Translations under genes and position numbers: made by a program
Notes under the pieces: model-generated
Told to the model about the DNA's origin: nothing
Database searches by the model: none
What the model saw: the letters and a program-made list of their open reading frames with translations, nothing else
Shown here: positions 27,236 to 41,937 of the stretch, in pieces
How positions within the stretch are numbered: the first letter of the stretch is position 1
How the letters are laid out: each line of letters starts with the position of its first letter
Assembly: GCA_025358925.1 (NCBI GenBank)
Contig: JANYHT010000004.1
Location: 1-64,000 of the forward strand
DNA length: 64,000 nucleotides
Reading direction: 5' to 3'
Source: Gemmatimonadaceae bacterium
Lineage (GTDB): Bacteria > Gemmatimonadota > Gemmatimonadetes > Gemmatimonadales > Gemmatimonadaceae

Positions 27236-27772
27236 CTACGCAGCCACCAGCTCGTCTCCGCACGCCGAGCAATAGTGCGAGCTGGCGAGGTCAATCCGCG
27301 CGCCGCAGTGCGCACACTGCGCTGGCAGATAACGGCCGCAGTTAGAGCAATAGGTGGCATCGGGTTCGCTTCGTGGTCCGCAGTCGACGCACCATTTCTG
27401 ATTCGTGCGCGCGCGACCGATTGCCGCTTCAATAGGATCGTCCACGGTAGTCGTCGCACTGCCGCCGACTTGCCCGGAGGATAGACGCAACTCTGCCAGC
27501 GCGGCCGTCGTGTAACGGGCCTTTAATTCGAGATAGTCGCTGTCGGATAATTTTCCCGTTTCGCGGTCAAACTCGATTTCGCGCAGGGCGGCCACGGCAC
27601 CATCTGTCGCCTCCACTGATTCATCACCGTCCACGCGCGATTTTGTCGGCGGCCGAATGGCTTTGTCGGAACCATCATTTACAAGCGGCGAGAGAACGAG
27701 TGTCAGGACGCCAAGTGCGAGCACGGTGCCCACCGCGAGCGGTATCGCCCCGATGGGAATGGCAATCGCCAT
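27236..27772 (-). CDS. Membrane-anchored double zinc-ribbon protein of the ccm operon
   Basis: From the ATG at 27772 the 178-residue protein has one N-terminal membrane helix (GAIPLAVGTVLALGVLTLVL). A helical segment LREIEFDRETGKLSDSDYLE resembles the SHOCT/CcmI-like linker seen after ccmH in some genomes. Two zinc ribbons follow at the C terminus (CVDCG...CSNCG and CAHCG...CSACGDELVAA). Its start overlaps the ccmH stop by one base (TAATG), so it is part of the operon. By position it may take the place of CcmI, presenting apocytochromes or sensing metal; that is inference. Confidence 0.75.
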   Translation of the reverse strand: MAIAIPIGAIPLAVGTVLALGVLTLVLSPLVNDGSDKAIRPPTKSRVDGDESVEATDGAVAALREIEFDRETGKLSDSDYLELKARYTTAALAELRLSSGQVGGSATTTVDDPIEAAIGRARTNQKWCVDCGPRSEPDATYCSNCGRYLPAQCAHCGARIDLASSHYCSACGDELVAA

Positions 27773-28491
27773 TAGCGGCTGCCGTCGCGCAATGCGGCCT
27801 CTAAGCGCGCGATTTCTTCGGGCGTCGCGTCCAAGGTGGACGTTGTTTCTACGTTGGTCGCCGCAGCGCGCGCACCAGCGGCCGCTCGCGCCGCGGCAGC
27901 AAAATCGGCATTGCGGCGCCACGAGCGCAACAGGGCACCGATGGCCACGGCGCCAATACCCATCGCAGCGAATGGCGCAAACCACGCAAGAAGGTTGAAG
28001 CCCTGCTTTCGCGGCGTCATTAAAATGAAGTCGCCATACGTCTGTATCATCGCCGCCATGATTTCGTCACCACTGTAGCCGCCGTCCACGAGGGCCTGGA
28101 CATCCTTATGCACGGCCGGCGAAATACCACAATTAAAGTCGGTGGTGCGACAGGTGTACACGTCGAGTGTGCAGGGACACGGACACGAGAGTTCACGTTC
28201 GAATGCCTCAATTTGCTTTGCGTCCATCTGCTTGATGGGATTCGCCTTGGGCGCGCGACGCACCGGCTTGTACGAATCGGACGTCATCTCGACGTTGCTC
28301 GCGGACGACTGCGTGTTTTGCGGCGCTTGATCGAAGGATGCGTTGCCAGTGGTCTGCGCGAGGACGCCGCGAACAACCAACGTGTTCGCTGCGGTCGCCA
28401 CAGCGACGATCGCCGCGCTGCGACCCATCAACGACAAGAAGTCGCGTCGCTGCATCGCACTGTCCGGCACCAACGTGTGATTGAGGCTCAC
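27772..28491 (-). CDS. ccmH: Cytochrome c maturation protein CcmH-like
   Basis: This is the thiol-disulfide partner that keeps apocytochrome haem sites reduced. The GTG at 28491 overlaps the ccmF stop (GTGA) with GGAG seven bases upstream, giving 239 residues. A twin-arginine-like leader QRRDFLSLMGRS follows 12 residues in. The redox site reads LSCPCPCTLDVYTCRTTDFN followed by another Cys, five cysteines where the family usually has LRCxxCQ. The later GYSGDEIMAAMIQTYGDFIL matches the CcmH domain, followed by a membrane helix (WFAPFAAMGIGAVAIGALL) and an Ala-rich tail. Confidence 0.85.
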   Translation of the reverse strand: MSLNHTLVPDSAMQRRDFLSLMGRSAAIVAVATAANTLVVRGVLAQTTGNASFDQAPQNTQSSASNVEMTSDSYKPVRRAPKANPIKQMDAKQIEAFERELSCPCPCTLDVYTCRTTDFNCGISPAVHKDVQALVDGGYSGDEIMAAMIQTYGDFILMTPRKQGFNLLAWFAPFAAMGIGAVAIGALLRSWRRNADFAAAARAAAGARAAATNVETTSTLDATPEEIARLEAALRDGSR

Positions 28492-30533: not shown

Positions 30534-30983
30534 TTAAGCGCGCGGAGTTGCAGCGCCCTGATAGCCGGGCGTCTCGCGGTATTTGTCGGGAGCGTTCTCG
30601 TAACGCGATGCACATTTGGCCAACAATGTGGTCGCTTGAAACGTGCCGTTGGAGTCAAGTCGACCTTCGACGACCACATCGACACCATCAGTAAACGTGT
30701 CGGGCGCGATTCCCTTGTAGTGCACCATGTACTCGCGCGAACCGTCGGTCATCTTGAAATCGAGCGAACGGCCGGAGGGATCGCGCACGATGGTGCCACT
30801 GACTACGCGCGCTCCAACTTTTACTCCGGTGTTTACAAAGCGCGGATTTGACGCGACTTTCGCAGACAGCTCAGTGGGCGTGAGATAATACTGTGCCGTC
30901 TCGTTGATCGAGCTGGCCATGAGATAGCTGGCGGTGCCGAGCACCAATGCACCACCAACAAGAAACTTTGTCCGAGCTTTCAT
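30534..30983 (-). CDS. ccmE: Haem chaperone CcmE, CxxxY type
   Basis: CcmE carries haem covalently from CcmC to CcmF. The ATG at 30983 (GGAG five bases upstream) gives 149 residues with an N-terminal anchor helix (FLVGGALVLGTASYLMA) and the OB-fold core (YLTPTELSAK, VHYKGIAPDTFTDGVDVVVE). The usual haem-binding site, LAKHxxxY, is LAKCASRYE here: the His is a Cys but the Tyr four residues later is kept. That CxxxY form is known from archaea and some sulfate reducers as the System I* variant. ccmA, ccmB and ccmC are not in this window. Confidence 0.93.
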   Translation of the reverse strand: MKARTKFLVGGALVLGTASYLMASSINETAQYYLTPTELSAKVASNPRFVNTGVKVGARVVSGTIVRDPSGRSLDFKMTDGSREYMVHYKGIAPDTFTDGVDVVVEGRLDSNGTFQATTLLAKCASRYENAPDKYRETPGYQGAATPRA

Positions 30984-31056
30984 GGGACTCCGTCCTGCGG
31001 TCACGAGTTTCACGCTGCGTGCTTGCTACGAATGATACCCCACGTCGGGCGATTCG

Positions 31057-40121: not shown

Positions 40122-41885
40122 TCAGCGCGCAAACGGACTCGCATACTTCGCCGACGTGAGAAACTCCGTGTCCGTTAGCGCGCGTAAGTAACTCACAATG
40201 GCTGCCTTATCGCTCGTACTGAGGTTCAAGCGCTGTCCTTGTCCACCATTGCCACGAAGGCGGTTGTCGAGGTTCGGGTTGGCCTGGACGCCGACATTGT
40301 AAAACTCCACGACTTGATCGAGCGTCGCGAACCGTCCGTCGTGCATGTATGGCGTACGCACAGCGATGTTGCGCAGCGAGGGTGCTTTGAAGCGGCCCTG
40401 GCCGGCACCAACATCGGTGACCGTCGCGTCGAGTCCGGTATTGTGAATGTCGTCACTCACATGCGCATTGCTGGTGTGACAGCGCGCGCAGCCGGCTGGA
40501 CCATTGAATAACTGTTGCCCTTGAATTTCCTGTGCCGTCAAAACGGAATTAAAGTTGGGAACGCCACCGGCGAATGCTTGATCAAAACGCGACGTCCCCG
40601 ACACAAGCGAGCGCACGAACTGTGAGAGCGCCCGCGCAATCCGATCACTGCTGATGTCACTGCTACCAAACGCTGCTTGGAACAGCGGTGCATAAAACGG
40701 CTGTAACGAAAGTTTGGTGACGAGATTGTCGAGCGTCATGCCCATCTCGGTTACGTCCTGAATCGGTGCGAGCACCTGCGCTTCGAGCGTGGCAGCGCGC
40801 TCATCCCAGAAGAATCGGCCACGCTGATAGAAGCGAGCGTTCTGCAAGCCCATGCTGTGCCGTCCGGTCGACCCGCCAGCAAAACCGCGACTCAGTTTGG
40901 CTGTATCTGCAAAACCAAACTGTTGCTGATGACACGATGCGCAGGAAACGCGATCATTGAGCGAAACGCGTCGATCATAAAAGAGCACGCGTCCGAGTGT
41001 CGCACCGGCGTCGGTCGTGCGATTTGTTACGGGTGTGTTGTCGAGCGCGATGACACTGCCGCCGGGCGCATTTGCTGCCGAGAAATGCAGCGGTAACGGC
41101 GACGATGCGTCGGAGTACGCGAACGCTGCGACCGGCAGCGACGGTGCGACGAGATCGGCGGCAAAGGTGACGATGGCAAATGCATTGGTTATAGACTGAC
41201 CGTTCGCATCGGTCGCGATCACCGTGGCCATCGTGGTGCCAACGGCCGACGGCACGCCTAGGACGCGTCCATTCACCGACGACAGGCCATTTGCGTTGGG
41301 GGCAAACGTTACCGCATAGGAGAGCGACGCGCCGGTGAAGGCCGTACCACCCTTTGTTGCGTCGTAGTTAAACGTCGCGCCAACCGTTGCGCCTTGGGCT
41401 GCATTGGCCGACGCGAGCGTGACGGGTGCCGCGCTGCCAACAACAATTGTCAGCACATCCGTTGCATTGCGACCCGTCGCATCCGACGCCGTGATCGTCG
41501 CGGTAAACGTACCAGCGACAAGCGGCACACCACGAATGCGTGCACCCGCGGCACTGAGGCCATTTGCACTCGGCGCAAACGATACGCGGTACGTCAGCGA
41601 TGTCGCACGCAACGCGCGGAACGCGGTACTGGCGCGACTTGCATCGAAGGTAAATACGACGCCGACGGTGGCCAGTTGCGAACTATTTGCGATGAGCGCG
41701 ACCGTCTCGCTCGCGGACGGTGACGTGACGTTGGACCCGCTGCTAGGCTGCTCCGCGCTGGTGCAGGCAGCGAGGAGACCGCCACTACAAAACGCCAGTG
41801 CCGTCGACAGGCGACCGATGCTGTTGCTGTGCGAAATGCGTAGCGCGCGGTTGCTCACTGTCGCCCTCATGCGATCGAGTTTCAT
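40122..41885 (-). CDS. Di-haem cytochrome c peroxidase with N-terminal Ig-like domains
   Basis: The 587-residue protein starts with a lipoprotein-type signal (LSTALAFCSGGLLAACTS). Two related Ig/cadherin-like units follow, each of about 90 residues, marked by SYAVTFAPNANGLSSVNGRV and the similar TYRVSFAPSANGLSAAGARI. The C-terminal half is a CCP/MauG-type di-haem domain with CASCHQQQFGFAD and CARCHTSNAHVSD and the late TPYMHDGRFATLDQVVEFYN. It should reduce peroxide in the periplasm using cytochrome electrons, or act as a MauG-like oxidase. The Ig units may tether it at the surface. I take the ATG at 41885; 41870 is an alternative. Confidence 0.88.
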   Translation of the reverse strand: MKLDRMRATVSNRALRISHSNSIGRLSTALAFCSGGLLAACTSAEQPSSGSNVTSPSASETVALIANSSQLATVGVVFTFDASRASTAFRALRATSLTYRVSFAPSANGLSAAGARIRGVPLVAGTFTATITASDATGRNATDVLTIVVGSAAPVTLASANAAQGATVGATFNYDATKGGTAFTGASLSYAVTFAPNANGLSSVNGRVLGVPSAVGTTMATVIATDANGQSITNAFAIVTFAADLVAPSLPVAAFAYSDASSPLPLHFSAANAPGGSVIALDNTPVTNRTTDAGATLGRVLFYDRRVSLNDRVSCASCHQQQFGFADTAKLSRGFAGGSTGRHSMGLQNARFYQRGRFFWDERAATLEAQVLAPIQDVTEMGMTLDNLVTKLSLQPFYAPLFQAAFGSSDISSDRIARALSQFVRSLVSGTSRFDQAFAGGVPNFNSVLTAQEIQGQQLFNGPAGCARCHTSNAHVSDDIHNTGLDATVTDVGAGQGRFKAPSLRNIAVRTPYMHDGRFATLDQVVEFYNVGVQANPNLDNRLRGNGGQGQRLNLSTSDKAAIVSYLRALTDTEFLTSAKYASPFAR

Positions 41886-41937
41886 CGTGTGATGAATACA
41901 ACACGTCATTGCACTGGCACCCCACGCTGGTCGCAAA

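Follow-up and report, generated by a model that had tools for sequence, protein, structure and literature searches.

Does a cysteine in place of the haem-binding histidine of CcmE mean that a bacterium uses System I*, the cytochrome c maturation variant of archaea and Desulfovibrio, or can it belong to a different arrangement? The question is raised by a ccmE gene in a 64,000-nucleotide stretch of Gemmatimonadaceae bacterium DNA (contig JANYHT010000004.1 of assembly GCA_025358925.1, positions 1 to 64,000), called the window here. In ordinary System I the thiol work is done by CcmG together with the LRCxxC pair of CcmH, and CcmI carries TPR repeats. System I*, as outlined in excerpts of a 2011 review (PMC3601427), has neither CcmH nor CcmG and is functional in E. 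coli. The window probably encodes a co-inherited cysteine-type System I module in which both CcmH and CcmI have changed.

The ccmE gene (30534 to 30983, minus strand) reads without interruption from an ATG at 30983 to a stop at 30534, giving a protein of 149 amino acids; an alternative GTG start is possible at 31013. The product matches the CcmE family profile PF03100 well above its cut-off (E 1e-28, 100 bits against 24.6), and an AlphaFold2 model predicts the CcmE fold (mean pLDDT 88.8), with 8ce8_E as the top PDB match (E 5.1e-9) and the Desulfovibrio vulgaris CcmE structure 2kct also recovered. The haem site reads LLAKCASRYE. Codon 124 is TGT (30612 to 30614, minus strand), and in HMMER alignments with E. 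coli CcmE (8ce8_E) and with 1j6q this cysteine falls on the haem-binding His, while the tyrosine of codon 128 (30600 to 30602, minus strand) falls on the conserved Tyr. The protein therefore has the cysteine-type CxxxY rather than the canonical HxxxY, bearing out the initial annotation in both the replaced His and the Tyr retained four residues on. The chance that a sequencing error or a dead gene copy lies behind the cysteine is negligible. The frame is intact, a genome search finds no second CcmE in the window's genome, and the same Cys is present in 8/8 other genomes of the genus that were read. Given that agreement, and because a His codon would take two base changes, the cysteine is not a matter of chance or of a single-base slip.

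On the minus strand ccmE (30983 to 30534) is followed by ccmF (30521 to 28488), ccmH (28491 to 27772) and a CcmI-like gene (27772 to 27236). The start of ccmH overlaps the stop of ccmF, and the ATG of the CcmI-like gene overlaps the stop of ccmH, indicating one operon. CcmF, the haem lyase, has 677 amino acids with the WWD region and the conserved periplasmic His; it matches PF16327 (CcmF_C, E 1e-55) and PF01578 (Cytochrom_C_asm, E 6.6e-41), and it aligns with Thermus thermophilus CcmF 6zmq (E 1.4e-104). CcmA, CcmB and CcmC are grouped on another contig of the genome (C25), unlinked to ccmE; with CcmF, the genome thus has four of the proteins expected of canonical System I. Since ResB of System II has no match in the genome, System I is the only visible system for c-type maturation. 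There is no CcmG linked to the window's ccm operon, and the CcmG model TIGR00385 gives six thioredoxin-like matches in the genome, none above the cut-off. Elsewhere in the window, a CCP/MauG-type dihaem peroxidase (40122 to 41936, minus strand) with CASCH and CARCH haem sites, preceded by a putative Ig domain, is a likely client of the Ccm system. The window organism's own CcmC (L140:6602-7333; L denotes a locus, G a genome with G000 the window's own, f a family-level group and g a genus) has Glu for Asp in its WWD region, WWVWEPR. This change was considered as a marker of CcmE type and rejected: it is found in the window's genus and in three of four f5 loci, Asp is usual in the remaining Cys genomes, and Glu also appears at two His loci (L040, L098).

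The CcmH of the operon is remodelled. Its gene (27772 to 28491, minus strand) begins with the GTG at 28491 that overlaps ccmF, with an inner ATG at 28455, and the product is the single match to the CcmH family profile PF03918 in the genome (E 5.9e-18). A predicted twin-arginine type signal, MQRRDFLSLMG..., was read at 28357 to 28455 (minus strand). LRCxxC is absent from the protein. In its place the class B alignment, described below, shows a five-cysteine motif, CPCPC-x6-C-x6-C (28129 to 28185, minus strand; C91, C93, C95, C102 and C109), and all five cysteines are invariant across 42 aligned class B sequences. An AlphaFold2 model built on this 42-row alignment has a mean pLDDT of 82.4, with 87 to 96 across the cysteine region; its top PDB match is Pseudomonas aeruginosa CcmH 2hl7, with a probability of 0.96 but an E value of 0.23.

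CcmH sequences from the phylum were sorted into class A with LRCxxC, class B with CxCxC-x6-C-x6-C (x5 in f5) and class C with SP[FY]CPG...C. Two assignments were made by eye: one sequence left unclassed by the patterns (L106 in G031, SPFGPHMLDMC, first Cys changed to Gly) was put in class C, and another (L320 in G023) was read as LRCPICQ. The twin-arginine signal was rejected as a general mark of the five-cysteine form, since it varies by family. In counts that take a few genomes twice and leave out genomes added later, a strict RRxF was present in 32/34 class B reading frames of f1, 5/10 of f2 (the others have RRxLL or RRxVL), 0/2 of f3 and 0/11 of f5, as well as in 1/38 class A and 0/22 class C frames. 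One genome has a second, class C-like CcmH with an internal TAG, probably a broken copy (G018:C1:3448721-3449020, L143). In two others (G086 and G124; L047, L058, L323, L325) the operon is without a class B ccmH and a class C CcmH lies elsewhere, as if replacing it.

The last gene of the operon (27236 to 27772, minus strand) is CcmI-like: its protein has a membrane anchor and a short helical piece, then zinc ribbons, with the double zinc ribbon at 27257 to 27391 (minus strand; PF12773, E 4.1e-7). Pfam finds no TPR repeats in it, setting it apart from canonical CcmI.

Both CcmE types are widespread in the Gemmatimonadota. Of 200 genomes examined from the phylum, 191 match PF03100, and the nine that do not include all five members of f10 (G001, G003, G005, G007, G009). 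The haem-site motif was read in 125 genomes, a non-random sample taken from the top-scoring genomes and supplemented with 30 from f5/f6, with 66 of the 191 CcmE-bearing genomes outside the count and G173 excluded for its short contig. Cysteine alone was found in 87, histidine alone in 34 and both in 3, and one more, with a masked motif base, was assigned to neither type (L214 in G109). The two types coexist in family f1, even within the single genera g3 and g16, and the 28 f5 genomes read comprise one His genome (G115), one with the masked base and otherwise Cys. The initial annotation called the cysteine form unusual outside archaea and some sulfate reducers; among the sampled genomes of the phylum it is the majority. 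Nor are the relatives uniformly HxxxY, the genus being all Cys and the family and phylum mixed. Six columns of an alignment of 22 Cys and 13 His sequences tell the types apart. Besides the haem position, these are the residue preceding the Tyr (R or K in the Cys type, E in the His type), the P-D-T-F turn (DT against QM), position 29 (T or N) and position 121 (L or M).

The CcmE residue is accompanied by differences in the other components. All 34 His-only genomes have a class A CcmH, and class B or C occurs in 0/34. The 87 Cys-only genomes divide into 58 with class B, 23 with class C, 2 with B and C, 2 with an LRCxxC-like class A and 2 in which none was found, so that a class other than LRCxxC is present in 83/87 and some CcmH is kept in 85/87. 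The three dual-system genomes all have classes A and B, and two of them keep each CcmE linked with the matching CcmH class (L044/L045, L070/L071). G115, the single His genome in the f5 set, carries a linked CcmH of class A; among the other 29 f5/f6 genomes, 10 have class B and 19 class C. A zinc ribbon in the CcmI-like protein is found at 53/64 Cys loci against 0/37 His loci; of four matches at His loci, the two inspected by eye are TPR-like. A CcmG-like gene lies within the searched span at 33/37 His loci against 0/64 Cys loci, though at the two f8 Cys loci one is found shortly beyond the span, just upstream of ccmE. In these f8 genomes (L104, L111) the cysteine CcmE is accompanied by a CcmH of LKCPVCR type and by a linked CcmG, in the order ccmG-ccmH-ccmE-ccmA-ccmB-ccmC-ccmF. 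This is possibly an intermediate form, and it indicates that a remodelled CcmH is not strictly required with a cysteine CcmE.

These counts bear on the proposal that the window carries System I*. One part of it stands, the cysteine-type CcmE, and the likeness to the systems of archaea and Desulfovibrio extends to the presence of CcmABC and CcmF and to the lack of a linked CcmG. The other part fails: the absence of CcmH defines System I*, and here the operon adds a five-cysteine CcmH and then the zinc-ribbon CcmI-like gene. A modified version would hold that the cysteine CcmE works with CcmF alone and that the genes for the CcmH-like and CcmI-like proteins are remnants or of minor importance. 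The Desulfovibrio and Methanosarcina systems do function without CcmH, according to excerpts of two papers (PMC3601427, PMC9084895), and CcmH was not found in two Cys-type Gemmatimonadota genomes, G121 and G194. In G121 (L092:11150-11500; genome 94% complete) ccmF runs directly into the CcmI-like gene, and this genome may represent a genuine System I* within the phylum. For the window this version is improbable, because a CcmH that is retained in nearly all Cys-only genomes, has invariant cysteines and overlaps ccmF is unlike a relic.

Like the System I of E. coli and Rhodobacter capsulatus, it has homologues of CcmABC, CcmE, CcmF and CcmH, the CcmE fold and a CcmI-like gene after ccmH. It differs from them in Cys for His, the missing LRCxxC, zinc ribbons for TPR repeats, no linked CcmG and unlinked ccmABC. 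A partial parallel is in print for the archaea Geoglobus and Ferroglobus, where an excerpt (PMC4600277) describes a Cys-type CcmE alongside CcmH without LRCXXC and with the CxC motif LX[SN]C[EDH]C. That likeness is one of printed motifs rather than of compared sequences, and the archaea have two CcmH genes flanking a second ccmF. Archaeal CcmH is described as confined to Ferroglobus in part of one paper (PMC4429474), and part of another reports that CcmH of ANME-2d resembles that of Geoglobus and Ferroglobus (PMC9012536). Searches of open-licence papers for this combination turned up no Gemmatimonadota case and no five-cysteine or twin-arginine CcmH. Judged on its sequence, the module appears to be a variant of System I that is partly paralleled in archaea; the cysteine by itself would be ordinary, and the surrounding package is what is noteworthy.

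A scan of genome contigs returned three loci, all from Gemmatimonadota, and a scan of viral contigs gave 11 pattern matches with no relative among them. A tblastn search of plasmids yielded 41 records for CcmE, of which 5 were inspected, and 9 for CcmH. Complete Cys-type Ccm clusters were found on Bacillota plasmids of Cytobacillus firmus (L151, near a quinol oxidase) and Metabacillus (L152). These share with the window a cysteine CcmE (KCPSKYE, whose K before the Tyr fits the R or K of the Gemmatimonadota Cys type), the order ccmE-ccmF-ccmH-CcmI-like and a CcmH without LRCxxC. They differ in that their CcmH has PPGC-x8-C, the CcmI-like piece is without a zinc ribbon and a TlpA-type protein is linked. 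Plasmids of Halobacterium and Natronorubrum (L153:7001-7375, L155:5001-5456) have a CcmE site VRAHEGE with neither His nor Cys, which stands against the statement, in an excerpt of one paper, that all archaeal CcmE have CXXXY.

The association could reflect common descent more than function. In the CcmF tree a single branch with support 100 separates all His rows from the rest (129 rows; 46 rows in a second tree), with the f8 and Bacillota rows on long branches on the Cys side. The CcmC tree (67 rows) has the same split with support 99, so ccmC tracks the CcmE type though unlinked to ccmE in the window's genome. When a GyrB tree (59 genomes) serves as the species tree, the CcmE type switches 11 times, at least 8 of them forced by well-supported branches. 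Across six independent pairs the CcmH class shifts in the same direction 5.6 times on average and in the opposite direction 0 times (sign test p ~0.03). Fisher p values, which take no account of relatedness, are given no weight here. There are thus two old module lineages that have been lost, gained or exchanged as sets.

The case for co-inheritance of CcmE type with CcmH class and with the CcmF and CcmC lineages is strong. That for functional coupling of CcmE type and CcmH class is only moderate, because the genes are mostly linked in f1 and f2, and with one deep His/Cys split in the gene trees the tie may go back to a single old event followed by exchange of linked operons. Pressed further, this would make CcmH class and CcmI type mere marks of two old operon lineages, different at many sites, with no functional link to the CcmE residue. 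Such a reading is unlikely. In its favour, a single His/Cys change suffices for each of the CcmF and CcmC trees, and the f8 genomes pair a cysteine CcmE with an LRCxxC-like CcmH. It has more difficulty with the unlinked parts that follow too, namely ccmC and, in f5, CcmH located away from ccmE. It would also have to accommodate the lack of class B or C CcmH in His-only genomes despite so many species-tree switches, and the Bacillota and Geoglobus Cys systems that are also without LRCxxC. The evidence that CcmE type and CcmH class go together comes from one phylum; outside it stand the two Bacillota plasmids and the printed archaeal case.

If the window indeed encodes a co-inherited cysteine-type module, it would supply the delivery and synthase half of the pathway, CcmE(Cys)-CcmF-CcmH(five Cys)-CcmI(zinc ribbon), and the CcmABC proteins of the other contig would form the export half that moves haem over the membrane. 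CcmC would load haem onto Cys124 of CcmE, probably through a thioether, with Tyr128 as an iron ligand; holo-CcmE would then hand the haem to CcmF, which would join it to CXXCH apocytochromes. The proposed haem attachment and Tyr ligation are drawn from characterised relatives. Excerpts on Methanosarcina acetivorans (PMC9084895) report that CxxxY, also present in "a few bacteria", is required for haem on CcmE. A different role, the cysteine as an axial ligand with no covalent bond, has been reported for D. vulgaris CcmE in a partial source (PMC3884852), and the predicted fold of the window's CcmE matches that very structure, 2kct. For the window such non-covalent binding seems rather doubtful, given the covalent, stainable haem on the Cys of CcmE described for D. 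desulfuricans and M. acetivorans in excerpts of PMC3601427 and PMC9084895.

In the proposed pathway, the thiol work of CcmG and the LRCxxC pair may pass to the five-cysteine CcmH, possibly helped by the zinc-ribbon CcmI, through either a relay of thiols or a thiol site held by a metal. A bolder and decidedly tentative extension is that the module belongs to a separate branch of System I with haem on the Cys. Its five-cysteine CcmH would do the thiol chemistry with a metal or Fe-S cofactor and would be exported already folded, which would account for the twin-arginine signal seen in the order to which the window's genome belongs. It would work with the zinc-ribbon CcmI, and the two would stand in for CcmG, for the LRCxxC pair and for the CcmI with TPR repeats. 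If that were true, System I* would be the reduced end of this branch and would not have arisen from ordinary System I by simple loss.

The significance of the module lies in a question posed in the 2011 review, excerpts of which ask whether the His and Cys forms of CcmE differ in mechanism, note that neither form tolerates a swap at the haem site, and report that bioinformatics had seen no compensating change in other Ccm proteins (PMC3601427). Gemmatimonadota show such changes, with CcmH class, CcmI type and CcmG linkage tracking the CcmE residue. Within the one phylum there is a graded set of His with LRCxxC, Cys with LKCPVCR and CcmG (f8), Cys with a five-cysteine CcmH, Cys with a class C CcmH and Cys with none found, along with the three dual-system genomes. 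This set makes the review's question accessible to part-swap experiments, and the apparent switch from His to Cys with rebuilt partner proteins provides a natural test of how the hand-over of haem works.
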